Positions 6,534-57,192 of a DNA stretch of 64,000 nt are shown piece after piece. The position numbers and the translations under genes are program-made. The stretch comes from Microbacterium sp. Au-Mic1 (lineage in GTDB: Bacteria; Actinomycetota; Actinomycetes; Actinomycetales; Microbacteriaceae). Numbering within the stretch: position 1 is the first letter of the stretch; each line of letters starts with the position of its first letter. The notes below the pieces were generated by a model. That model worked only from the letters and a program-made list of their open reading frames with translations. It was not told where the DNA came from and ran no database searches. The DNA lies in the NCBI RefSeq assembly GCF_021341785.1, contig NZ_JAJTTF010000003.1, positions 186,001-250,000 of the forward strand, given 5' to 3'.

Positions 6534-7050
6534 TCAGGCGGGGCCGCGGGCGTGCTCCGCGGCCCCGCCCCATCCGCGCGCGAGACGGCGGATCCGCCAT
6601 CCGCGCCATTGCCACGCCGCCCAGAGCACGGGCAGCAGGGCGAGCGATCCGGGACCGCCGAAGACGAGCCGGTCGCGCCAGAGCGCCCGGCCGTCCGGCA
6701 GGGCGGAGACGGCCATGCGGTGGTCCCAGACGTCGAGCGACGAGAGCGGTCCGGTGAGCGGGATCCCGCTGTCGCGCAGGATCCGCACGGTCTCGCCCTT
6801 GTGCTCGCGAACCTCGTCGTACGCGCCGATGAGCTGGGTGCCGACCGTGATCAGGCCGAACAGGCGCAGCCGCACCGCGCTGTGCAGCAGAGAGCCCTCG
6901 TCGGCGTGCGTGAGCGGCTCGACGACGATCACCGGGGCGTAGAGCGCGGTGAGCACGGCGGGCGAGTGCAGGGCCGCCCAGGCGTCGTCCGCGCTCGCGG
7001 AGATCCGGAATCAGCTGCACATGCCGCAGCGTCAGCGTGGTCGTCGTCAT
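6534..7050 (-). pseudogene. SRPBCC-family protein gene with an apparent +1 frameshift
   Basis: The ATG at 7050 overlaps the stop of the SprT-like gene (ATGA) and starts MTTTTLTLRHVQL in one frame. The rest of a START/SRPBCC-like protein (FRISASADDAWAALHSP, then VLTALYAPVIVVEPLTHADEG to the stop at 6534) is in the next frame, which is open only after a stop near 7011. Skipping one base near 7011 joins them into a normal first beta strand and helix of the fold (HVQL-FRISASADDAWAAL). The gene may be broken, the base may be a sequence error, or translation may start at the GTG at 6956 and give a short 140-residue form. The C-terminus (about 115-140) is hydrophobic then basic. Confidence 0.6.
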
Positions 7051-7535
7051 CGCGGCAGCACCGCCGCCCGGCGGTCGGCGGCCGTGATCTCGCGGCGGGT
7101 CCAGATCAGCAGGAAGCGCTCGTCGTAGCGCCGGGAGCAGCGTGCGCATGAGGACGCCCTGGTGGGGCGCCGGTGCCGGTACGTCACGTGGCCGGTCGGG
7201 CAGCGACCCACCCACGGCGCCAGGTCGGTCGCCGTCTCGCCGTGGTGCGTGGTGCCGCCCACGTAGCCCAGCGCGCGGGCCGTCCGCTTCCATGCGGCGC
7301 CGTGCGCGGCGTCGTGGCCGGCGACGGCGTGCGCCACCTCGTGCAGGAGCACCTGATGGATCTCGTCGTCGTCGAACCGGGCCGCGAGATAGCGGGAGAC
7401 GGTGATCCGCTTGTCGCGGTAGTTGCAGGCGCCGGCGCGGCGTTTGGCGTTGTCGAAGCCGAACGACCACGTCGGATCCAGATGCAGCCGGATCAGGGCC
7501 TCGCCCCAGATCCGCACTCGCTCCAACTCGGCCAT
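7047..7535 (-). CDS. SprT-like zinc metalloprotease domain protein
   Basis: 162-residue SprT-like protein. The zinc/catalytic motif HEVAHAVAGHD gives H65, E66 and H69, with another His-rich turn (DAAHGAAWKR) just after. The C-terminal part has spaced Cys and His (CPTGHVTYRH and CARC) that look like a degenerate zinc ribbon. Related proteins (SprT, SPRTN) cleave DNA-bound or damaged proteins, but the bacterial role is little known. The ATG has no ribosome site, and a -10-like TAACGT sits six bases upstream (7542-7547), so a leaderless message is predicted. The stop overlaps the next gene's ATG. Confidence 0.85.
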   Translation of the reverse strand: MAELERVRIWGEALIRLHLDPTWSFGFDNAKRRAGACNYRDKRITVSRYLAARFDDDEIHQVLLHEVAHAVAGHDAAHGAAWKRTARALGYVGGTTHHGETATDLAPWVGRCPTGHVTYRHRRPTRASSCARCSRRYDERFLLIWTRREITAADRRAAVLPR

Positions 7536-36974: not shown

Positions 36975-37979
36975 ATGGTCGTGAGCGTCCGGGAAGTGGC
37001 CGAGGACGCCGGCGTGTCTGTGGGCACGGTGTCGAACGTCCTGAACCGCCCCGAGCGCGTCTCCGCCGAGACGGTGACCCGGGTGCAGGCCTCGATCGCC
37101 CGCCTCGGGTACGTGCGCAACGATGCGGCCCGACAGCTGCGCGCCGGCCGCAGTCGCACCATCGGGCTCGTCGTGCTCGACATCCGCAACCCTTTCTTCG
37201 CCGAGGTCGTGCGCGGCGCCGAGCAGCGCGCAGACGAGCACGGGATGTCGGTGCTGGTCGCCAACAGCGATGAGAGCGCACACCGTGAGGGCATGCTCTT
37301 GGACCTGTTCGAGGAGCAGCGCGTGGCGGGCGTGCTCATCACGCCGGTCGCCGACGCGCTGCCGCGGCTGCAGCAGATGCGCGATCGCGGCACGCTCAGT
37401 GTCCTCGTCGATCGCGAATCGCGCGATCCCGGGTTCTCCTCCGTCGCCGTGGACGACGTCGAGGGCGGGCGGATCGCCGCCGCACACCTGCTGGAGAGCG
37501 GACGGCGCCGACTCGCCTTCGTCGGTGGACCGGTCTCGCTGCGACAGGTCTCGGACCGCCTGAGCGGAGCGCAGGCCGTGGCCGCCGCGGCCGGGGTGGG
37601 GTTGGAATTCATGGCGACGGGTGCACTCAGCGTGGAGGAGGGGCGTCGTGCGGGCCGACTCCTCATGGAGCGTCCGGCCGCGGAGCGCCCGGACGCGGTG
37701 TTCGCGGCGAACGATCTGCTGGCGCTGGGAATGCTGCAGAGCCTGGTGATGGCCGGCGATGCGCGCGTGCCGCAGGACATCGCACTCATCGGATACGACG
37801 ACATCGACTTCGCCGAAGCCGCGGTGATCCCGCTGAGCTCGATCCGCCAGCCTGCCGGGCTCATCGGATCCACGGCGGTGGACCTGCTGCTGGGGGTGTC
37901 CGATGGCGGCACGGCGACCGCCGAACGGGTCCTGTACCGGCCGGAACTCGTCGCGCGCGCGTCGACGCTCGGCGTCTGA
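36975..37979 (+). CDS. LacI-family regulator of the rhamnose locus
   Basis: 334-residue repressor. Residues 1-50 form the LacI HTH and hinge (REVAEDAGVSVGTVSNVLNR), and residues 60-330 form a periplasmic-binding-protein-like effector domain. It is the obvious candidate to bind both TGAATCGATTCA sites and release them on a rhamnose-derived inducer (inference). A TAGGCT -10-like box at 36944 and the GGGAGAGGGGG ribosome site suggest its own promoter, 74 bases after the GH78 stop. Confidence 0.92.
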   Translation: MVVSVREVAEDAGVSVGTVSNVLNRPERVSAETVTRVQASIARLGYVRNDAARQLRAGRSRTIGLVVLDIRNPFFAEVVRGAEQRADEHGMSVLVANSDESAHREGMLLDLFEEQRVAGVLITPVADALPRLQQMRDRGTLSVLVDRESRDPGFSSVAVDDVEGGRIAAAHLLESGRRRLAFVGGPVSLRQVSDRLSGAQAVAAAAGVGLEFMATGALSVEEGRRAGRLLMERPAAERPDAVFAANDLLALGMLQSLVMAGDARVPQDIALIGYDDIDFAEAAVIPLSSIRQPAGLIGSTAVDLLLGVSDGGTATAERVLYRPELVARASTLGV

Positions 37980-38089
37980 ACGACGCGCGGACGGGACCTC
38001 GCCGGCCTCGATTTCTCGTGACCGGATCCGCCGGGTATGCTTGATCTCCGCGCCCCCGGTCGGCTGGAAAAGCGGGACGGGCGTGCATT

Positions 38090-38171
38090 GGCAAGTTGCC
38101 CGAGCGGCCAAAGGGAGCTGACTGTAAATCAGCCGCGTCATGCTTCGGGGGTTCGAATCCCTCACTTGCCA
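38090..38171 (+). tRNA. tRNA-Tyr (GTA)
   Basis: 82-base type II tRNA with a long variable arm. Acceptor arms GGCAAGT and ACTTGCC pair fully. The anticodon stem-loop reads CTGACTGTAAATCAG with anticodon GTA, and the T-loop is GGTTCGAATCC. CCA is not encoded. A strong terminator follows at 38180. No repeat of its 3' end is seen downstream. Confidence 0.97.
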
Positions 38172-38179
38172 CCCAGTAC

Positions 38180-38218
38180 AAGGCCCGGGATCTGAGGAAA
38201 ACTCAGGTCCCGGGCCTT
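38180..38218 (+). terminator. Terminator of tRNA-Tyr
   Basis: Stem aaggcccgggatctgag against ctcaggtcccgggcctt with one G-T pair and loop gaaaa. It lies nine bases after the tRNA, and also faces the end of the Doc-domain gene. Confidence 0.8.
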
Positions 38219-38268
38219 ATGCGTTGCCTCGGCTCCTACCGCCTCGTAGCGACCCACGAACGCGCGGA

Positions 38269-39474
38269 CTATACCTTCGCCAGCGCACGCAGGAGCGAGC
38301 GATACTGGACGATAAATTCGTCGGGCGTGCGCTCGTCGCCGTAAAAGATCACAGAATCCACCCCGTGGGTCTCGTCGAGATGGAGCTCACGTCGCATCTG
38401 CTTGATCGTCCCGAGGCCCACTTCGCGCCCGTCACCGGCCGGAACGAACTGGAATCGGCGCACCGTTTGCTTCCGTCTGCCGAGGAACCCTCGCTCAACG
38501 ATTGCTCGCTCCACCAAAACCCCAGTAGTTCGCGAACTGATCGAGCACTCGAAGTCCTGCTTAAGGATCCCGCGCAACTTCCGCCACGTGATGGGACGTT
38601 CGGAGCGCGAGACCGGTCGCGAGTTCTTTCGAATCCATTCGGCGATCACAAGTACCTCTCGATCAGCCACTCGGTCGTAGTCGAAGCCCTTGGGAAGGAT
38701 CTGATGGTTTGTGACCTCCAGCATCCATTTGAAGATCGCGTCTTTATCGACGGAGTCACGAAGCCACTGGTTATGTCTGTCAAGGAACACAAGCAGGCTC
38801 ACCACCGCAGTGCGTTTGTTGCCGTTGTGGAACGGATGATTGTGGACGAGCGAGTGGACGAGCGCCGCAGCCGCCATCTCGATGGTTGGGTACTTGGGTT
38901 CGACACCGTGGCCCGAAAGCGGTCTCATGAGCGCGCTGGCGAGCGAATCTTCGTTCTTCACTCCGGGCGGCCAGATCGGATCATTTGCTTGGGTGGCGTC
39001 ATTCTCAAGCGCTTCGTGAATCGACCGCACTTCGTCAACAGTCAAGAACATCGTTGGTTCCTTCTGCCCGATCACCTTCCAGGAGATCGGCGGTGCTGTC
39101 GGCTTCTTCACTGCTTCCGTGGGCGTGGGCGGCACCGGCGAGGGCTGTTCCTTGACCATCCGTGCCAGCCGTGACGACGCTCCTTTCGGGATGTTGCGGG
39201 CTCGTTCCGGTGATACATAACCGAGAGAGACCAGGCGGGTGTCGAGATCGGCGACCGTGATGCCTAGCTGGGCCGCCCAGTAGGACTTGCGCCTTCTATC
39301 CACGCGCGATGGCAGCTGGCACGCGCGTAGGGCGGTATTCAGGTCGTCGCTTCGAATCAGAGACGATGGCTCCGTCACATAATCGATGTCTGCGTACCAG
39401 AGGGTGACGAGGACCTCTTCGACATCCTTCTCGGCTGCGGTTGCGAGCTCGCGCACGCTCATCGTTGTTGGCAC
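38269..39474 (-). CDS. Doc/Fic-domain protein with extra N- and C-terminal domains
   Basis: 401-residue protein of atypical, more AT-rich codon use. The GTG at 39474 has AGGAG six bases upstream and is preferred over the ATG at 39498. Residues 1-45 look like an IF2_N-type small helical domain (VRELATAAEKDVEEVL), with a possible second copy at 60-90. A Pro-rich linker (108-130) precedes a Doc domain whose core motif HPFHNGNKR spans 213-221. The Lys where AMPylating Fic enzymes have Gly suggests Doc-like phosphorylation of a translation target. Residues 295-380 (WRKLRGIL, then EVGLGTIKQMRREL) resemble a HicA fold. No separate antitoxin gene is adjacent. Confidence 0.75.
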   Translation of the reverse strand: MPTTMSVRELATAAEKDVEEVLVTLWYADIDYVTEPSSLIRSDDLNTALRACQLPSRVDRRRKSYWAAQLGITVADLDTRLVSLGYVSPERARNIPKGASSRLARMVKEQPSPVPPTPTEAVKKPTAPPISWKVIGQKEPTMFLTVDEVRSIHEALENDATQANDPIWPPGVKNEDSLASALMRPLSGHGVEPKYPTIEMAAAALVHSLVHNHPFHNGNKRTAVVSLLVFLDRHNQWLRDSVDKDAIFKWMLEVTNHQILPKGFDYDRVADREVLVIAEWIRKNSRPVSRSERPITWRKLRGILKQDFECSISSRTTGVLVERAIVERGFLGRRKQTVRRFQFVPAGDGREVGLGTIKQMRRELHLDETHGVDSVIFYGDERTPDEFIVQYRSLLRALAKV

Positions 39475-39610
39475 TTTGGCTCCTATCAAGCCCATCATGA
39501 CGGATCACGCCGACATTGAAAGTGCGGAACGCACGGGGGCTTTCGTCGTTCTCCGGGCTCCGGCGGGACGGCCGCCGCGTGGACTCCGGGCCCGGCTCCG
39601 CCGCGCTTTC

Positions 39611-39616
39611 TAGACT
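39611..39616 (+). promoter_or_regulatory. Predicted leaderless -10 box of the FBP-domain gene
   Basis: TAGACT at 39611-39616 lies seven bases before the ATG at 39624, and no ribosome site exists between them. Confidence 0.45.
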
Positions 39617-39623
39617 GGTCCTC

Positions 39624-40115
39624 ATGCGTGCCCTCACCGAAGACCAGATCCGGGCGTCGTTCCGCAACGCAGAGCCCGACAAGGCCGCCGAGATCGCGAT
39701 GCCGCACGACCTGCTGCTCGCCGAGTGGGACTACCTCGACTTCTTCGCATGGCGGGATCCGATCGCCTCACGCAGCGGCTACATCGTCATCGAGCAGGAC
39801 GGCGAGCCCGTCGGGATCGTGCTGCGTGCGGCGGATCCGTCCCGGGTGCGCTCCGGCATGTGCAACCTCTGCCACACGATGCAGCCCGGCAACCAGGTCG
39901 CGCTGTTCGCCGCCCGCCGCGCGGGCGCGGAGGGGCGCAAGGGCTCCGTCGTGGGCACTTACATCTGCGCCGACCTCTCCTGCCATGAGAGCGTGCGGAT
40001 CGTGCCCCCGCTCGCGCCCAACGAGATCCGTGCGGACCAGCACGCCGACCGGCGCCTGGACGGCACCCATCGTCGCGTCTACTCCTTCGTCGCGTCCGTG
40101 CTCGGCGACGCCTGA
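39624..40115 (+). CDS. FBP-domain (FusB-like zinc-binding) protein
   Basis: 163-residue protein with an FBP-type treble-clef zinc domain. The ligand set is CNLCH near residue 74 and CADLSCHESVR near residue 113. FusB-type proteins bind elongation factor G and rescue it from fusidic acid; actinobacterial homologues are common and largely uncharacterised. The ATG at 39624 gives the family start. The gene is in normal host codon use, so the foreign Doc gene ends before it. Confidence 0.85.
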   Translation: MRALTEDQIRASFRNAEPDKAAEIAMPHDLLLAEWDYLDFFAWRDPIASRSGYIVIEQDGEPVGIVLRAADPSRVRSGMCNLCHTMQPGNQVALFAARRAGAEGRKGSVVGTYICADLSCHESVRIVPPLAPNEIRADQHADRRLDGTHRRVYSFVASVLGDA

Positions 40116-48197: not shown

Positions 48198-48269
48198 GCC
48201 CCGATAGCTCAGTGGCAGAGCACTTCCATGGTAAGGAAGGGGTCGTCAGTTCAATCCTGACTCGGGGCT
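48198..48269 (+). tRNA. tRNA-Thr (GGT)
   Basis: 72-base tRNA. Acceptor GCCCCGA pairs with TCGGGGC, the anticodon stem-loop is CTTCCATGGTAAGGAAG with anticodon GGT, and the T-loop is AGTTCAATCCT. It lies 24 bases before tRNA-Met and is probably co-transcribed with it; TATTCT near 48166 may be the -10 box. Confidence 0.96.
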
Positions 48270-48293
48270 CGCAGTATCCATCGGATGCCGTGC

Positions 48294-48367
48294 GGCAGGG
48301 TAGCTCAGTTGGTGAGAGCGCACGACTCATAATCGTGAGGTCGCGGGTTCAAGCCCCGCTCCTGCTA
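48294..48367 (+). tRNA. tRNA-Met (CAT), integration target
   Basis: 74-base elongator-type tRNA. The anticodon loop is CTCATAA with stem CACGA/TCGTG, and the T-arm is GCGGGTTCAAGCCCCGC. The acceptor pairs GGCAGGG with TCCTGCT through two wobble pairs. Its 3' part from 48326 is duplicated at 52819 as the other end of an integrated element, so the 3' half here was probably supplied by the element. Confidence 0.96.
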
Positions 48368-48404
48368 CAGAATGAGGCCCCCGGATTTCCGGGGGTTTTC
48401 TCGT
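48326..48404 (+). repeat. Attachment site copy next to intact tRNA-Met (attL)
   Basis: Direct repeat with 52819-52897. The first 51 bases are identical, then one mismatch (48377), then 27 more identical bases covering the tRNA terminator. It begins in the anticodon loop. Confidence 0.95.
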
Positions 48405-49381
48405 GTCTGGCCCGTGTTTGCCGCGTGCTCACCCCCTCGAAAAGTGACCTCACTGGTTTCGGCGTCGAGGATGCGCTTCGCTGCCAGCGCCGCGTCGCGC
48501 GACCGCGTATGCGTATACCGCTCGGTTGTCGTGATTGACGCGTGGCCCATGACCTGCTGCAGGTATGCCGGGGCGAGGCCTAGATCACTGAGCCGAGACG
48601 CGAACGTGTGGCGCAGATCGTGGAACCGCAGCGGCCTGCCGTCCGCATAGGTAACGATGAGGGGCCGGATCCTCCACCAGTGGAGGGCGCGACTCAAGTT
48701 CGTGCTGTCGAACGGCCCGCCCTGCGACCCGGTGAACAAGTAAGGGAAGTCCGTTGCGATCGCGGCCCGAAGCCAGGGTTCGAACTCTTCGATGATCGGT
48801 ACATCGCGCGCGTGACCGCTCTTCGTGGGTCGCTCGACGACGCGGCCATGACCATCTGGTGAGCGCGTGGCGCGGATTCGCAGCAAGCCGTTGTCGAGAT
48901 CGACATGCTCAGCGCGCAGGGCCGACACCTCGCCCAAGCGTGCACCGGTGAGGGCGAGCGCTGCCAGCATTCGCTGCCCATGCGGGTGAAAGGCGGTGAG
49001 ATCGAGCATGGCCGCCACCTGTGCCCGGGACAGCGCGCGCTCCGTCAGATCGGACAGCCTGGACTTGCCGCGTTGGCGGGGGAGCGCCTTAACCGGGTTC
49101 GTCGCCAAACGCTGATCGAGCACGGCAAGGTCAAGAAGCTGAGACAGCATCGACTTTGCTGCGTTCCGGGTACTCGGCTTGCCCTGCCATTCGTTCATCG
49201 CCCTGAGGACGGTGAGCGCTCGCAAATCCGAGAGCGGGAGGTGCCCGAGTGTCGGCGCGATTCGAAGGCGCCAGGCGCGCTCGTACCCCTGAATCGTGTT
49301 CGAGGTGAGGTCAGCGAACAGCAGCGACACGTTGTCGCTGTAGAAGTCGCGTAGGAGTACGCGTTCTGGCTGTAGTCTCAC
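48365..49381 (-). CDS. Tyrosine recombinase (site-specific integrase)
   Basis: 338-residue phage-type integrase. The SAM-like N-terminal DNA-binding region (about 25-105) precedes a catalytic domain. The Arg motif LTGARLGEVSALR is near residue 146, RFHDLRHTFASRL near 258, and the His-to-Tyr end HASITTTERYTH near 282-293 with the nucleophile Tyr. The stop codon lies inside the tRNA-Met acceptor, so the last codons are encoded by the attachment site. The GTG start at 49381 is six bases after a -10 box, so a leaderless message with an operator over the promoter is predicted. Confidence 0.95.
   Translation of the reverse strand: MRLQPERVLLRDFYSDNVSLLFADLTSNTIQGYERAWRLRIAPTLGHLPLSDLRALTVLRAMNEWQGKPSTRNAAKSMLSQLLDLAVLDQRLATNPVKALPRQRGKSRLSDLTERALSRAQVAAMLDLTAFHPHGQRMLAALALTGARLGEVSALRAEHVDLDNGLLRIRATRSPDGHGRVVERPTKSGHARDVPIIEEFEPWLRAAIATDFPYLFTGSQGGPFDSTNLSRALHWWRIRPLIVTYADGRPLRFHDLRHTFASRLSDLGLAPAYLQQVMGHASITTTERYTHTRSRDAALAAKRILDAETSEVTFRGGEHAANTGQTRENPRKSGGLIL
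48378..48399 (+). terminator. Terminator of tRNA-Thr/tRNA-Met
   Basis: cccccgg, loop attt, ccggggg, then tttt. It is duplicated at the other attachment site. Confidence 0.85.
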
Positions 49382-49395
49382 ATTTGGAGACTACA
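49371..49395. promoter_or_regulatory. Operator palindrome at the integrase start
   Basis: TGTAGTCTC (49371-49379) and GAGACTACA (49387-49395), a 9-bp perfect inverted repeat with a 7-bp centre. It covers the -10 box and start codon of the integrase gene. A third half-site GAGACTA lies at 49423-49429. Confidence 0.75.
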
Positions 49396-49416
49396 GCCGG
49401 AACGCGGCTAGTGCAA
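49388..49416 (-). promoter_or_regulatory. Integrase promoter
   Basis: On the minus strand, TTGCAC (49416-49411), a 17-bp spacer and TAGTCT (49393-49388), then six bases to the GTG at 49381. It overlaps the operator. Confidence 0.7.
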
Positions 49417-49426
49417 CACTTTGAGA

Positions 49427-49804
49427 CTAGCTGTCTTCCTTTGGGGGAGTGCGGTCCGCCATACCGACGGCGAACGCGGCTGGGTCGACGGTGATACCCG
49501 GGAACTCGTACACGTCCGGGTGCTCGCCGAAGACACGGCGGAACAAAGCGATGCGCCGATACAAGGATGAACGGCTCATGCCGAACTGCTTTTGCATCCC
49601 CTCGAACCCGCCGACGAGTCGCCACGTCACCCAGAAGCCGAAGAGATCGAACATGTTTGAGGTCGTGTAGCCGCGAAGCGCAGACTTCATGAACGGTAGG
49701 GCCGCGTAGATCGCCTTGTTCGCCTTGGCGTTCGTGTCGTAGTACGCGCCCCACGCCTGCTCAAGCGCTTGCTTCGCGCGGCCCTCACCCTCAGGGGAGG
49801 GCAT
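49427..49804 (-). CDS. HTH protein of the element, possible excisionase/regulator
   Basis: 125-residue protein if started at the ATG 49804 (PSPEGEGRAKQALEQAW); the frame is open to 49927, and a GTG at 49828 is also possible. The C-terminal third holds a helix-turn-helix-like segment (FGMSRSSLYRRIALFRRVFG near residue 89). It lies directly upstream of the integrase, and its stop overlaps a third half-site of the integrase operator. That is the position of a recombination directionality factor or repressor, so it is the best candidate to bind that operator. There is no firm family assignment. Confidence 0.6.
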   Translation of the reverse strand: MPSPEGEGRAKQALEQAWGAYYDTNAKANKAIYAALPFMKSALRGYTTSNMFDLFGFWVTWRLVGGFEGMQKQFGMSRSSLYRRIALFRRVFGEHPDVYEFPGITVDPAAFAVGMADRTPPKEDS

Positions 49805-49913
49805 TCGCTCGGATCGGAAGTCCGTCACATTGCACGCCCTAGTCTCGAATCGTGGACTATCAGGATACGTCCCCGACCCGACATAGCTGACTCGCGCATC
49901 ACATACTTGTGTC

Positions 49914-50297
49914 GTGAGCTTCGACATCTACTTCCAGCGCTTCGAGAATGGCGATGCCGCGTCGGGAGGCGGTGCTGCGGCATCCGAGGTACTGCGGGCG
50001 TTTCTGAGGCCGTCCCCGCAGAACCCCGAGCGTATCGAGCACCCAGGCGGCTCGGCAGAGATCTACGGCCTCAGTGACGAGGGGATGATGGCGACGCACG
50101 TCGACGGAGGCGATGCGATCTGGGATCTTCTCGTGTCGACGGCACGAGCCGCGAACTGGACGATCCTTCCCGTCGGCTGCGCCGTGTGTATCTTCACGAC
50201 TGAGATGGAGGCCGCGCTACCTGAGGGTCTGGGCGACGATGGTGTCAAAATCATCGAGAGTGGAGCGGATCTCCTGCGAGTCATCGCCGAAAGTTAG
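49914..50297 (+). CDS. Hypothetical protein of the element
   Basis: 127-residue protein of unknown function and the only plus-strand gene inside the element. The GTG at 49914 lies six bases after a CATACT -10-like box (49902-49907), so a leaderless message is likely. It opens SFDIYFQRFENGDA and has mixed alpha/beta character. It ends with a segment that suggests a small binding fold (GDDGVKIIESGADLLRVIAES). It is divergent from the HTH gene. No homologous family is recognised. Confidence 0.6.
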   Translation: MSFDIYFQRFENGDAASGGGAAASEVLRAFLRPSPQNPERIEHPGGSAEIYGLSDEGMMATHVDGGDAIWDLLVSTARAANWTILPVGCAVCIFTTEMEAALPEGLGDDGVKIIESGADLLRVIAES

Positions 50298-50350
50298 TGG
50301 TGACCCATTCTCGGTGTTTCCCGAAATCTTCTACACAAGATCAAGGGAGA

Positions 50351-50746
50351 TCAGAAGGGAGCCTCGAGACCGTTAAGCCCCTCAATGAGGTTAGAAAACA
50401 GTCGCGAAGCGCCGGATGCAGAACGCAATGCGCGTTCGCGAAGCTCCGGAACCAGCTCCGCCGCAGTGATGATAGTGGTGTCGTCGCCAGTTCGTGCTGG
50501 CGTTGACTCCAGCCTCGCAAGAAGTTTTCTGGCTTCCCTATCACCGACGCCTAGGTAGAACGGCGGTCGGTCATCGCGGTCAACAGAGCCGATGACGTAG
50601 TCAAACGCACCGACTGGGGCGACCACGATCCCGCCCTGTGCCTGCATATCCTCATCTTGCGGTTCCTGGATCCACTCCAGCCTGCCCGCGTCAGTGAGTG
50701 CCATCAACCGCCGGACGAGTTGCATCCATTCGTCGTCAGTGAACAT
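50351..50746 (-). CDS. Hypothetical protein, partner of the overlapping membrane protein
   Basis: 131-residue soluble, acidic protein. The ATG at 50746 (FTDDEWMQLVRRLMALTDAG) sits inside the end of the upstream gene (11-base overlap) with GCGAAGAGA before it, so the pair is translationally coupled. The frame is also open to 50815. It has helical ends around a central beta-rich part (GIVVAPVGAFDYVIGSVDRD). No catalytic motif or family is seen. Codon use is AT-richer than the host. As cargo next to a membrane protein it could be an effector or regulator (inference only). Confidence 0.6.
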   Translation of the reverse strand: MFTDDEWMQLVRRLMALTDAGRLEWIQEPQDEDMQAQGGIVVAPVGAFDYVIGSVDRDDRPPFYLGVGDREARKLLARLESTPARTGDDTTIITAAELVPELRERALRSASGASRLFSNLIEGLNGLEAPF

Positions 50747-51260
50747 TCTCTTCGCCTCCGAGTTGGTAACGATCTCCAGCCACGAGACCAGCGATCTCGA
50801 CTGAAAGGGCGGCAATCTCCTTCGTCACCGCTTTCGCGGTCCGTGCGACATCCACGTTCCGTCGACCAACTATCGTCGCCTTAACATCGAGCGCTGATGA
50901 GGCGACTTCAGAGAGTCGCGTCTTCAACGCTGAATGATCCGCGGTTCGATTGTCGAGGAGCGATATAGATTCGGTCGCCACGTAGCCAAATCTGAGAAGC
51001 GCTCGGTGAGCAACTTCGCGGTCGTTATTATCGACGGCAAAATCGAGATCCGCAACGACGGTCTGCAGCTGAGGCACGACGGCTGACAGCTGATCGCCGT
51101 TGAGTTTTCGACGCGCACGCTCCAACTCAGAAGCCGCAGCCTGGGTTGCCGTTCGCGTCTTTCGAAGTTGGGCGATCGCAATCCAGAATCCGGCCACGGT
51201 GAGAAATAGCCCGAGCCAGTCATGCCACCCAGGAGCGGCTTGACTGTCGAACCACCACAC
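50736..51260 (-). CDS. Membrane-anchored helical protein of the element
   Basis: 174-residue protein. The GTG at 51260 is preferred because GGAGG lies eight bases upstream; a GTG at 51269 is too close. A single N-terminal membrane helix (WLGLFLTVAGFWIAIAQL, about 15-32) is followed by a long, mostly helical charged region (ASELERARRKLNGDQLSAVV) that could form coiled coils. It overlaps the downstream gene by 11 bases. The layout resembles membrane sensors or anchors of small defence or toxin systems, but no known family is recognised. Confidence 0.6.
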   Translation of the reverse strand: MWWFDSQAAPGWHDWLGLFLTVAGFWIAIAQLRKTRTATQAAASELERARRKLNGDQLSAVVPQLQTVVADLDFAVDNNDREVAHRALLRFGYVATESISLLDNRTADHSALKTRLSEVASSALDVKATIVGRRNVDVARTAKAVTKEIAALSVEIAGLVAGDRYQLGGEENVH

Positions 51261-51470
51261 GATGCGCACCTCCGATTCCTAGCGAAACCTATCATCGCGG
51301 AACTGCAGCTCTCGTGATTGCCGCGAGCCTGATTGCTGCCGCCCTCCGCGCTTCGCGCTCCGGTTGCCCTCAGCATCGCGCCACGTTTCGTCGGACGATG
51401 CGCCGGAGCGGGCCGGAGCGGGCGCGCGCGTGCCGCAGGCGGCACCGCGCCGCGCCCCGCTCTGCCCCGC

Positions 51471-51710
51471 TCAGGCTCCGTCGTACGTCGACCACGGCGG
51501 CACGACGGTCGACCGCACGATGTGCACGTAGCTTCCTGAGTACTCGGGCCACATCGAGATGAAGATCGCGAGCGCTTCCTCGTGCGTCGCGGCCACACCC
51601 ATCACTCCGCCCAGAAGGCGACCAGGTCGGCCGAACGCGTCGACCTCGTACACGTCCCAGTCCGGCAGCGGTTCGTCCGTCGCTCCGGGGGACCCCAACA
51701 TGAATCGCAT
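51471..51710 (-). CDS. Small hypothetical protein after Rep
   Basis: 79-residue protein if started at the ATG 51710, which has AAGGAG six bases upstream. An ATG at 51728, overlapping the Rep stop, gives six more residues. It includes DWDVYEVDAFGRPGRLLGGV and AATHEEALAIFISMWPEYSG. No family is recognised. It is probably co-transcribed with Rep. The region 51270-51470, between it and the membrane protein, is GC-rich and shows no gene. Confidence 0.55.
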   Translation of the reverse strand: MRFMLGSPGATDEPLPDWDVYEVDAFGRPGRLLGGVMGVAATHEEALAIFISMWPEYSGSYVHIVRSTVVPPWSTYDGA

Positions 51711-51724
51711 CTTCGCTCCTTCGT

Positions 51725-52795
51725 TCATGGCGCGGACCAGCCCCGCGCTACCAGCTCGCGCCGCGATCGCGCCGCGAGGTCCTCGAGCGGCTCCGGCGCA
51801 ATGGCCGGCGCATCGGCGCCGGCGTCGGCCCCCACGCGCGTCCACCACTCACGTCGAAGGCGCCGCTGCAGAGTCCGCGTGAGACCGACGAATGACCAGC
51901 CAGAGCGGTCGCTCGTACGACGCGACGCACTCACCACTTGGGACCGCGAGCCGTACCGCTGATGTACGAGGCTCGAGCAGTTCTGGGGCTCGCAGTCCCG
52001 CCCGCATCGCATCCGCCGCGCGGCGTCGCCGAGGGCAACTTGATGCCGCCACACCTCGAGCGGCGCTTCATCGGCACTCGAAGCGACATCCTTGAGTACG
52101 TAGTTCAGTGCCTTGGACAGGTACCAAATCGTCTTGGCGCCATCACCGTCCGCGCGGAACGCATCGCATTTCGCTTGTGCGCCCCACTCCACGACCGTTC
52201 CGTCGACCCGCGACACCGCTGTCGCCGTTCGTGCGGCCTGCCGCAACGCGTCCGCAGCCGGGGCCTCGAACCGCGCGACGCGAACGAGCGCGTGCACGTG
52301 GAGCACACCACGGTCCTGCCACTCCCGCACGATGAAGTACTCGAGTGAGTCCCACCGATCCCTCAGCCGCCGTCGTGTGCGATCCCACAGCACCCCGGCA
52401 TCCCGGTTCCACGCGACCTGGCCCGCGTAGTCGTAACTCTCCGAGTCCAAGGGCACACCCCGCAGCGCGGCATCCCTCGGCGTGTGGGTCGCGCCGCAGC
52501 CGCACCGAGCCGGACCCTCGGCACCGTCACGCGGAACCCGATGCACACGGCCGAACGACGGCGCCGTCAGTGTCAGCAGATAAAAGCGGAACTGCTCAAC
52601 CGGCCCGTCGAAGACACCCGAGCGAGCGATCGCCGCCCAGTCGCCGCGATACAGCTCCGCGCACGAAGCGCACTTGCTCTTGATCCGTGACCCGCAACGG
52701 ACCCATGCGCCTGTGGCCGTCTTGATGGGGGACGAGCAACCACGTGCGAGCACATCGGCTGCGCCGGGTTCGATGCTTTCGGAGTCGGCTCGCAT
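51725..52795 (-). CDS. HUH-type replication initiator (Rep)
   Basis: 356-residue protein with features of actinobacterial RepSA-like rolling-circle initiators. It has a Cys-rich start (CGSRIKSKCASC), a first conserved region FRFYLLTLTAPSFG, the metal-binding HUH motif GVLHVHALV near residue 166, and a Tyr-bearing helix WYLSKALNYVLKD near residue 230 that would nick DNA. Further Cys/His (CGRDCEPQNC) lie beyond. It sits 24 bases from the attachment site at the end of the element opposite the integrase. The start is uncertain, as no ribosome site precedes the ATG. Confidence 0.8.
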   Translation of the reverse strand: MRADSESIEPGAADVLARGCSSPIKTATGAWVRCGSRIKSKCASCAELYRGDWAAIARSGVFDGPVEQFRFYLLTLTAPSFGRVHRVPRDGAEGPARCGCGATHTPRDAALRGVPLDSESYDYAGQVAWNRDAGVLWDRTRRRLRDRWDSLEYFIVREWQDRGVLHVHALVRVARFEAPAADALRQAARTATAVSRVDGTVVEWGAQAKCDAFRADGDGAKTIWYLSKALNYVLKDVASSADEAPLEVWRHQVALGDAARRMRCGRDCEPQNCSSLVHQRYGSRSQVVSASRRTSDRSGWSFVGLTRTLQRRLRREWWTRVGADAGADAPAIAPEPLEDLAARSRRELVARGWSAP

Positions 52796-52818
52796 GGCGA
52801 GCGGCTACGGGTACACGC

Positions 52819-52897
52819 CTCATAATCGTGAGGTCGCGGGTTCAAGCCCCGCTCCTGCTACAGAATGAGACCCCCGGATTTCCGGGGGTTTTCTCGT
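52819..52897 (+). repeat. Attachment site copy, far end (attR), with tRNA-Met 3' fragment
   Basis: Second copy of the 79-bp repeat, including the tRNA-Met 3' half from the anticodon loop and the terminator. It has no 5' tRNA half, so it is not a functional tRNA. Confidence 0.95.
52871..52892 (+). terminator. Duplicated tRNA terminator in attR
   Basis: cccccgg, attt, ccggggg, tttt, identical to the one at 48378-48399. Confidence 0.75.
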
Positions 52898-52939
52898 ATC
52901 CAGCGTCACGGCCCGGCTGCGCCTGGACGGCTGATCGCA

Positions 52940-55657: not shown

Positions 55658-57073
<1,416 letters not shown>

Positions 57074-57192
57074 TTGCGACTCCATCGTCGAGTGTTCTTG
57101 CACGAACGTTATCGGCAAGAGACGGTCGCGCCCGGCGACAGGTCTCTCGGCGTTGCGTCAGCTTGCTCTTAGATGGCACCGGTGCCGCACGA

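Follow-up and report, generated by a model that had tools for sequence, protein, structure and literature searches.

A single gene beside tRNA-Tyr in Microbacterium sp. Au-Mic1 encodes a protein in which a Doc toxin domain is predicted to be flanked by an IF2_N-like domain on its N-terminal side and by a HicA-like domain and a conserved tail on its C-terminal side. We tentatively explain it as a solitary, horizontally acquired Doc-family enzyme that would need no second gene and would target translation to bring about growth arrest or abortive infection. The Doc variant with the IF2-like N-terminus is new, and its Doc and HicA-like core belongs to a wider family that is already known as phrog_18015. 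Textbooks present Doc as the toxin half of an addiction module of two genes, and a Doc branch with a HicA fold, what appears to be its own inhibitory helix and no recognized partner antitoxin would show how a two-gene toxin-antitoxin system turns into a one-gene switch. The family has been overlooked, its members being named "type II toxin-antitoxin system death-on-curing family toxin" in RefSeq and listed with unknown function in PHROGs.

We refer to the whole stretch of DNA analyzed, 64,000 nt of contig NZ_JAJTTF010000003.1 (positions 186,001 to 250,000), as the window. Residues are numbered on the 409-aa form of the protein; numbers in the initial annotation are lower by 8, so that its H213 and K220 are H221 and K228 here.

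Table 1. The Doc-family gene, the parts of its product and the flanking features (window coordinates).
Feature	Position	Strand	Remarks
Whole Doc gene	38269..39498	-	409 aa from ATG; 401 aa from GTG at 39474
IF2_N-like domain	39310..39471	-	residues 10-63; predicted with VIA-align and hhalign
Second small helical module	39145..39309	-	residues 64-118; conserved YW, LG and PKG motifs
Low-confidence linker	39055..39144	-	residues 119-148; pLDDT <50 at 118-148
Doc domain	38614..39054	-	residues 149-295; motif HPFHNGNKR at 221-229
HicA-like domain without catalytic His	38374..38589	-	residues 304-375
Conserved tail, GxDSxxFY ... YRxxLxRLA	38272..38373	-	residues 376-409; proposed built-in inhibitor
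tRNA-Tyr (gta)	38089..38175	+	one side of variable site; 93 bp from Doc gene stop
Conserved neighbour gene	39579 (or 39625)..40115	+	other side of variable site
LacI-type regulator	36975-37979		beyond tRNA-Tyr

A low-GC gene at a variable site next to tRNA-Tyr

The Doc gene has a GC content of 0.596 and a GC3 of 0.72, the lowest among the 43 window genes of at least 150 aa that were called with a crude in-house gene caller (mean 0.908, sd 0.050), in agreement with the initial description of a single AT-richer gene between tRNA-Tyr and core genes. Two start codons come into question. The GTG at residue 9 is preceded by GGAG. Homologue L054, which is 85% identical and is the same protein as L009 (from a Microbacterium sp. 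record), has an ATG where the window gene has this GTG; no usual start codon precedes it in the frame, and the upstream ATGATG is out of frame there. Because of the GGAG and the corresponding start in L054, the 401-aa form is likely to be the true one. Comparison with L054 gave a dN/dS of 0.064 (dN 0.090, dS 1.42, that is, above 1 and near saturation), with values of 0.029 for the IF2_N-like domain, 0.045 for the Doc domain and 0.079 for the HicA-like domain; among the parts with usable dS, the linker had the highest value (0.199). This ratio, even with dS near saturation, indicates that the protein is maintained and that the gene is under purifying selection. Together with the Pfam and NCBIfam matches described below, it also rules out a chance open reading frame.

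The interval between tRNA-Tyr and the conserved neighbour gene (38176-39578 in the window) was compared in nine hand-chosen genomes of the genus. In seven of these nine relatives the order is that of the window, and the interval measures 1.1 to 7.8 kb and holds mostly different genes (L045-L051), with one interval gene shared by L046 and L050. In the other two the order is reversed. In relatives, too, the neighbour gene is close to tRNA-Tyr; we take it to be "FBP", and it had no Pfam match above cut-off. At the L054 locus, too, the Doc gene is found 3' of tRNA-Tyr, 0.8 kb away, but there the tRNA separates it from the conserved gene. At four of the seven loci found in the genus, a tRNA gene is no more than 1 kb away (for Tyr, Tyr, Met and Phe). 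We searched the window for an attachment repeat of the tRNA-Tyr 3' end, and at up to 3 mismatches only the tRNA itself matched; since there is no second copy, integration into the tRNA was not shown. Horizontal acquisition of the gene is part of the tentative explanation given above.

The central domain is a Doc domain

Pfam matched Fic at residues 152-239 (E 7.1e-11) and NCBIfam matched DOC_P1 with 42.4 bits, above the cut-off of 38.65. The Fic/Doc part is the only one that these curated libraries recognize. In an AlphaFold2 model of the full protein (mean pLDDT 76.4, pTM 0.55, from an alignment of 11 sequences), VIA-align fitted P1 Doc (3dd7_A) to residues 149-294 with Z 15.2 and rmsd 2.0 over 122 of 123 residues, and Doc was the best structural match of this core. 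Foldseek returned nothing from the PDB at E 0.001 or better for either the full or the C-terminal model, its best hit being Phd-Doc at E 1.7e-3 with the full model; against viral models, two matches reached E 0.001 or better, both unnamed.

The Doc motif at residues 221-229 agrees with the pattern HxFxx[A/G]NKR. H221 and N225-G-N-K-R229 do not vary among the 11 rows of alignment A4 or among the 8 rows of alignment A5 (both alignments contain the window protein, and the L009 and L054 rows are the same protein). The position where Doc has K and Fic has G is K in every row of both alignments, and a passage of PMC7180214 attributes the inverted ATP of P1 Doc to this replacement of G by K. The annotation of the core as Doc thus holds, with the K of Doc in HPFHNGNKR, the Z-score and the DOC_P1 match in its favor. 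The window protein shares with P1 Doc (Phd-Doc; 3dd7, 3k33) the fold of residues 149-294 and the motif with K, but it differs in having two extra domains and a tail, no Phd gene being found, and in having N at the acidic position of P1 Doc (the D of HxFxDANKR), a replacement seen in all rows of A4 and A5. As N replaces the acidic residue, the chemistry may differ from that of P1 Doc. An N at this position is nevertheless shared by E. faecalis Doc (9vzc), which PMC13034048 describes as a toxin neutralized by Phd.

The N-terminus resembles the N-terminal domain of IF2

The initial annotation had likened the N-terminus to the small helical domains of initiation factor 2, and the fold check that it proposed points the same way. 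VIA-align fitted IF2 (4b3x) to residues 10-63 of the AlphaFold2 model with Z 6.9 (middling by the program's own grading) and rmsd 1.4 over 53 residues, in a region where the 11-sequence modelling alignment is covered by two sequences only, which are 85% identical. An N-terminal alignment of seven sequences matched IF2_N in hhalign with probability 51 and E 1.5e-4; crossed controls for the profile-profile matches reached probabilities of 3.3 and 0.6. Residues 10-63 would thus have the fold of the IF2 N-terminal domain (4b3x, PF04760) with weak profile similarity, but unlike in IF2 the domain is not carried by a translational GTPase, and it scores below the Pfam gathering cut-off (IF2_N, 12.5 bits against 25.3). 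When the N- and C-terminal parts were searched against the PDB with profiles made from sequence only, nothing convincing was returned.

In the second module, modelled with helices at residues 67-78, 82-91 and 107-116, no convincing family match was found. The N-terminal part of one homologue (L062) resembles this second module only. The IF2-like addition was seen only in actinobacterial sequences. A Rhodococcus plasmid match was considered as a further relative with the N-terminus and rejected, its alignment being limited to the Doc part.

The C-terminal part has a HicA-like fold without the catalytic histidine

HicA (6hpb), with its dsRBD-like fold, was fitted by VIA-align to residues 304-375 of the full model with Z 8.1 and rmsd 1.4 over 57 of 57 residues. 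When the C-terminal part was folded alone, in a model that is weaker overall (mean pLDDT 73.9), 6hpb came first (Z 8.0) and 1whz, which we take to be a HicA-like protein, came second (Z 6.5), the third row being at 3.8. A C-terminal alignment of 18 sequences matched HicA by profile-profile comparison with probability 74 and E 2.9e-5. The HicA match rests on VIA-align and on this comparison, as HicA is absent among the 50 Foldseek matches listed for the C-terminal model. The C-terminal part of the window protein was not assigned to any family by Pfam or NCBIfam; with PF07927, the window domain had no match and two of the 18 members matched at E up to 1 (best E 0.047).

Passages of PMC7180214 state that the histidine of HicA is required for its RNase activity. 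None of the 18 aligned sequences has a histidine at columns 324-327, around the HicA catalytic position in strand 2, so that a HicA-type RNase is unlikely and a working one was rejected. Of the HicA fold that had been read from the C-terminus, the predicted architecture was therefore upheld and a working RNase was not. Compared with HicA of HicAB (6hpb) and with 1whz, residues 304-375 would share the fold, but the domain lacks the catalytic histidine, is fused to Doc and carries an extra tail, and no HicB was seen.

The C-terminal tail is a candidate inhibitor in cis

The last two ten-residue blocks of the tail have pLDDT values of 90 and 91 in the full model and the tail is at about 45-70 when the C-terminus is folded alone, which suggests that the Doc domain places the tail. 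It is conserved at least as strongly as the HicA-like fold (2.58 bits for the tail, 2.25 for the fold), with L406 and A407 ranking among the positions of highest conservation. In the VIA scan, 13 of the 50 rows (NmFic, Mycoplasma Fic and EfFic, including 2g03) align the model out to residue 404-409; the Doc, VbhT and FicD rows end at 294-301. NmFic and EfFic presumably belong to the Fic class with a C-terminal inhibitory helix, and the helix that is permuted in 2g03 is, we assume, the C-terminal one. In these 13 rows the C-terminal helix is aligned at the chain end like the tail of the window protein; unlike NmFic and EfFic, the window protein has no (S/T)xxxE(G/N) inhibitory motif and has K instead of G in the Fic motif. 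According to Kinch et al. 2009 (PMC2686095), 2g03 has a permuted helix, and Doc lacks two core helices of Fic, including the one permuted in 2g03, for which Phd substitutes. From the alignments to 404-409, the Doc-dependent confidence and the conservation we propose that the tail is a built-in Phd; alignment ranges and pLDDT suggest that the C-terminal helix could serve as an inhibitor of the enzyme that carries it.

No linked antitoxin gene was detected

The initial annotation had also stated that there is no separate antitoxin, and in agreement with it none was recognized in the survey of homologous loci. At the window locus no antitoxin gene was found, the spacing being 17 to 150 bp upstream, depending on start codons, and 93 bp downstream. 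We compared open reading frames of at least 30 aa that overlap the gene or its edges with the loci of six homologues. What they matched in L054 was the Doc gene itself, the tRNA or the known neighbour, and one long ORF that runs into the gene beyond the neighbour had a further match elsewhere in L093. A 70-aa ORF (39495-39707, - strand) overlaps the ATG of the Doc gene and is partly antisense to the neighbour gene; it had no tblastn match at E 1e-3 in the six loci, and an antitoxin overlapping the gene start was rejected because no candidate was conserved there. At 17 loci, inspected by eye on crude ORF calls, no small partner recurred beyond near copies of the same element. A 60-aa ORF upstream of the filamentous-phage copy was dismissed as a dedicated antitoxin, since two E. 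coli genomes that were inspected have it but lack the Doc gene. At three loci a small separate Doc-family gene adjoins the homologue (L057:10251-10688, L078:4796-5284 and L083:3923-4402).

The core is shared with a wider family

Judging from its sequences, the Doc and HicA-like core of about 240 aa is a wider, uncharacterized family that is already binned as phrog_18015 (PHROGs v4), which has no IF2-like N-terminus. Of six relatives that were scanned, four match phrog_18015 over almost the entire length (for L011, E 5e-175 over 1-244 of 244) and two match it partly. The window protein aligns with it only over the Doc part (152-294, E 4.5e-25) and shares the Doc domain, the HicA-like domain and the GxDSxxFY tail with the core family in alignments A4 and A9. 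From A4 we left out L077, a near copy of L075, and L080, the ORF of which failed the motif filter; from A9 we left out L010, L076, L077, L081, L062 and L080. The initial annotation, which knew of no described system with this order, must be corrected here: the protein is not a one-off, its core being phrog_18015 and its homologues being named as ordinary Doc toxins in RefSeq. In the literature listings and abstracts searched, mostly of open-access papers and without preprints, we found no Doc/HicA-like or Doc/IF2_N protein.

The core occurs in four Klebsiella plasmid records, one of which was inspected, in a 7.9-kb Salmonella record with filamentous-phage genes, and in three Vibrio phage records, the inspected one being classed in Tubulavirales. 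A profile search of viral contigs gave 17 loci; 11 of them (L073-L083) match both parts, with whole ORFs read in 10, and the six weaker ones (L084-L089) were left out. A scan of viral contigs with the window protein alone found no relative. One Vibrio phage record (L012, PQ189380.1) shows the core gene split into two annotated ORFs (6616-6723 and 6746-7348), and this copy may be broken or misannotated.

Within Microbacterium, seven of 295 genomes match at E 1e-15 or better, five of them (including the window) over the full length and two without the N-terminus. A search with the whole profile in 396 genomes of the phylum gave a match at E 1e-20 in 13 of them, and in three of these (the window's own, L061 and L062) the match extends over the C-terminal part. 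The C-terminal profile alone found three among 396 genomes of the order, namely the window's own and two with an in-frame Doc motif. Of 5426 E. coli genomes, 211 contain part of the filamentous-phage query, and only 5 contain at least 80% of it.

Mobile settings and defence neighbours

Copies of the family are thus carried by phages and plasmids. The filamentous-prophage slot holds the Doc gene in one inspected E. coli genome and other genes in two genomes without Doc, which is the behaviour of an accessory gene that is exchanged between prophages. The genes seen in this slot (L137, L138 and L139) encode the Doc and HicA-like protein, an STM4504/CBY_0614 family protein or a putative zinc-binding protein. 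At L076, an integrase-like ORF is 42 bp away from the gene and an SmpB-like ORF follows beyond it, both identified by eye, which suggests an element that is located near smpB.

Near homologues we found a type I restriction-modification set (L055), GmrSD (L056), a GmrSD_N protein (L058), HmaC at 154 bp (L095) and an OLD-like ATPase (L082); this first set was picked by eye at few loci. PADLOC gave 90 families at E 1e-15 or better for 81 neighbour proteins at 10 loci, against 25 families for 91 proteins in 9 control stretches, a contrast that is only rough because families overlap and the output does not give the matching protein. As the control stretches also matched, the enrichment of defence genes near homologues is only suggestive, and no defence gene was recognized among the window's own neighbours.

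Proposed function and alternative explanations

In the explanation that we tentatively favor, the Doc domain would transfer phosphate from ATP onto a translation factor, possibly EF-Tu by analogy with P1 Doc, which phosphorylates EF-Tu according to a passage of PMC7180214. The IF2_N-like domain would dock the enzyme on the ribosome or the initiation machinery, and the HicA-like domain, without the RNase histidine, would bind RNA or another partner. The C-terminal helix would supply in cis the part of the Fic fold that Doc receives in trans from Phd, and would restrain the enzyme until a signal, for instance phage RNA or a stalled ribosome, reaches the HicA-like domain or the N-terminus. The toxicity of the freed enzyme and a role in defence are what we infer from this arrangement. 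The functional proposal of the initial annotation, a self-contained translation-stress or phage-defence system, is a reasonable hypothesis. A Fido-fold gene has been reported or tested in phage defence in the cases of SoFic and a class II Fic gene, according to PMC11514479; unlike the window protein, both are predicted AMPylases. A bolder form of the explanation, which we consider rather doubtful, is that a whole toxin-antitoxin system has collapsed into one protein, with a Doc kinase held by its own helix, gated by a dead HicA-fold RNA sensor and delivered to the initiating ribosome by the IF2-like domain. If this were true, carriage on phages, plasmids and islands would make the proteins a self-contained phage-defence family that senses RNA or ribosomes.

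The gene could instead be an ordinary Doc toxin or addiction gene with an antitoxin that is unlinked, unrecognized or overlapping, and with flanks that modify only stability or autoregulation. The RefSeq naming of the homologues, the carriage by phages and plasmids, an AbrB-type gene just upstream of a Doc-only plasmid match and the 70-aa ORF at the ATG would all fit, but no small partner recurs at the 17 loci (some of them near copies, with small ORFs judged by eye), the 70-aa ORF is not matched in the six homologue loci, and the 60-aa filamentous-phage ORF is present without the Doc gene; we regard this as unlikely. It is likewise improbable that the protein is a Doc-like enzyme with another chemistry or target, such as AMPylation or a target outside translation, that would serve superinfection exclusion or regulation and not arrest. 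Such an enzyme would fit the N that every row has where P1 Doc has its acidic residue, and also the accessory-gene position in filamentous prophages, whereas the Doc-specific K is identical in all A4 and A5 rows, Doc is the best structural match, and the Phd-neutralized 9vzc has the same N.

A very unlikely alternative is that the protein is half of a two-Doc system, with the small second Doc protein as its partner or antagonist. The small gene is 235 bp downstream on the same strand at L057, tail to tail at L078 and directly upstream at L083 (the latter two recognized by motif only), but these are three loci only, no such gene was called beside the window gene or L054, and the L057 protein differs from those of L078 and L083. 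Finally, the rarity of the gene in the genus (seven of 295 genomes) might be expected of a decaying foreign gene without function, a reading that is hardly credible given a low dN/dS overall and in all three domains, albeit with dS near saturation, and an intact catalytic motif.

Other features of the window

A tRNA-Thr/tRNA-Met pair in the window is followed by low-GC genes (one of them, 48365-49381, has a GC3 of 0.77), and this region (48198-52900) looks like a second island. The homologue L055 also lies beside a tRNA-Met, as in this pair. A gene of 475 aa at 55658-57085 has the second lowest GC3 among the window genes (0.75).
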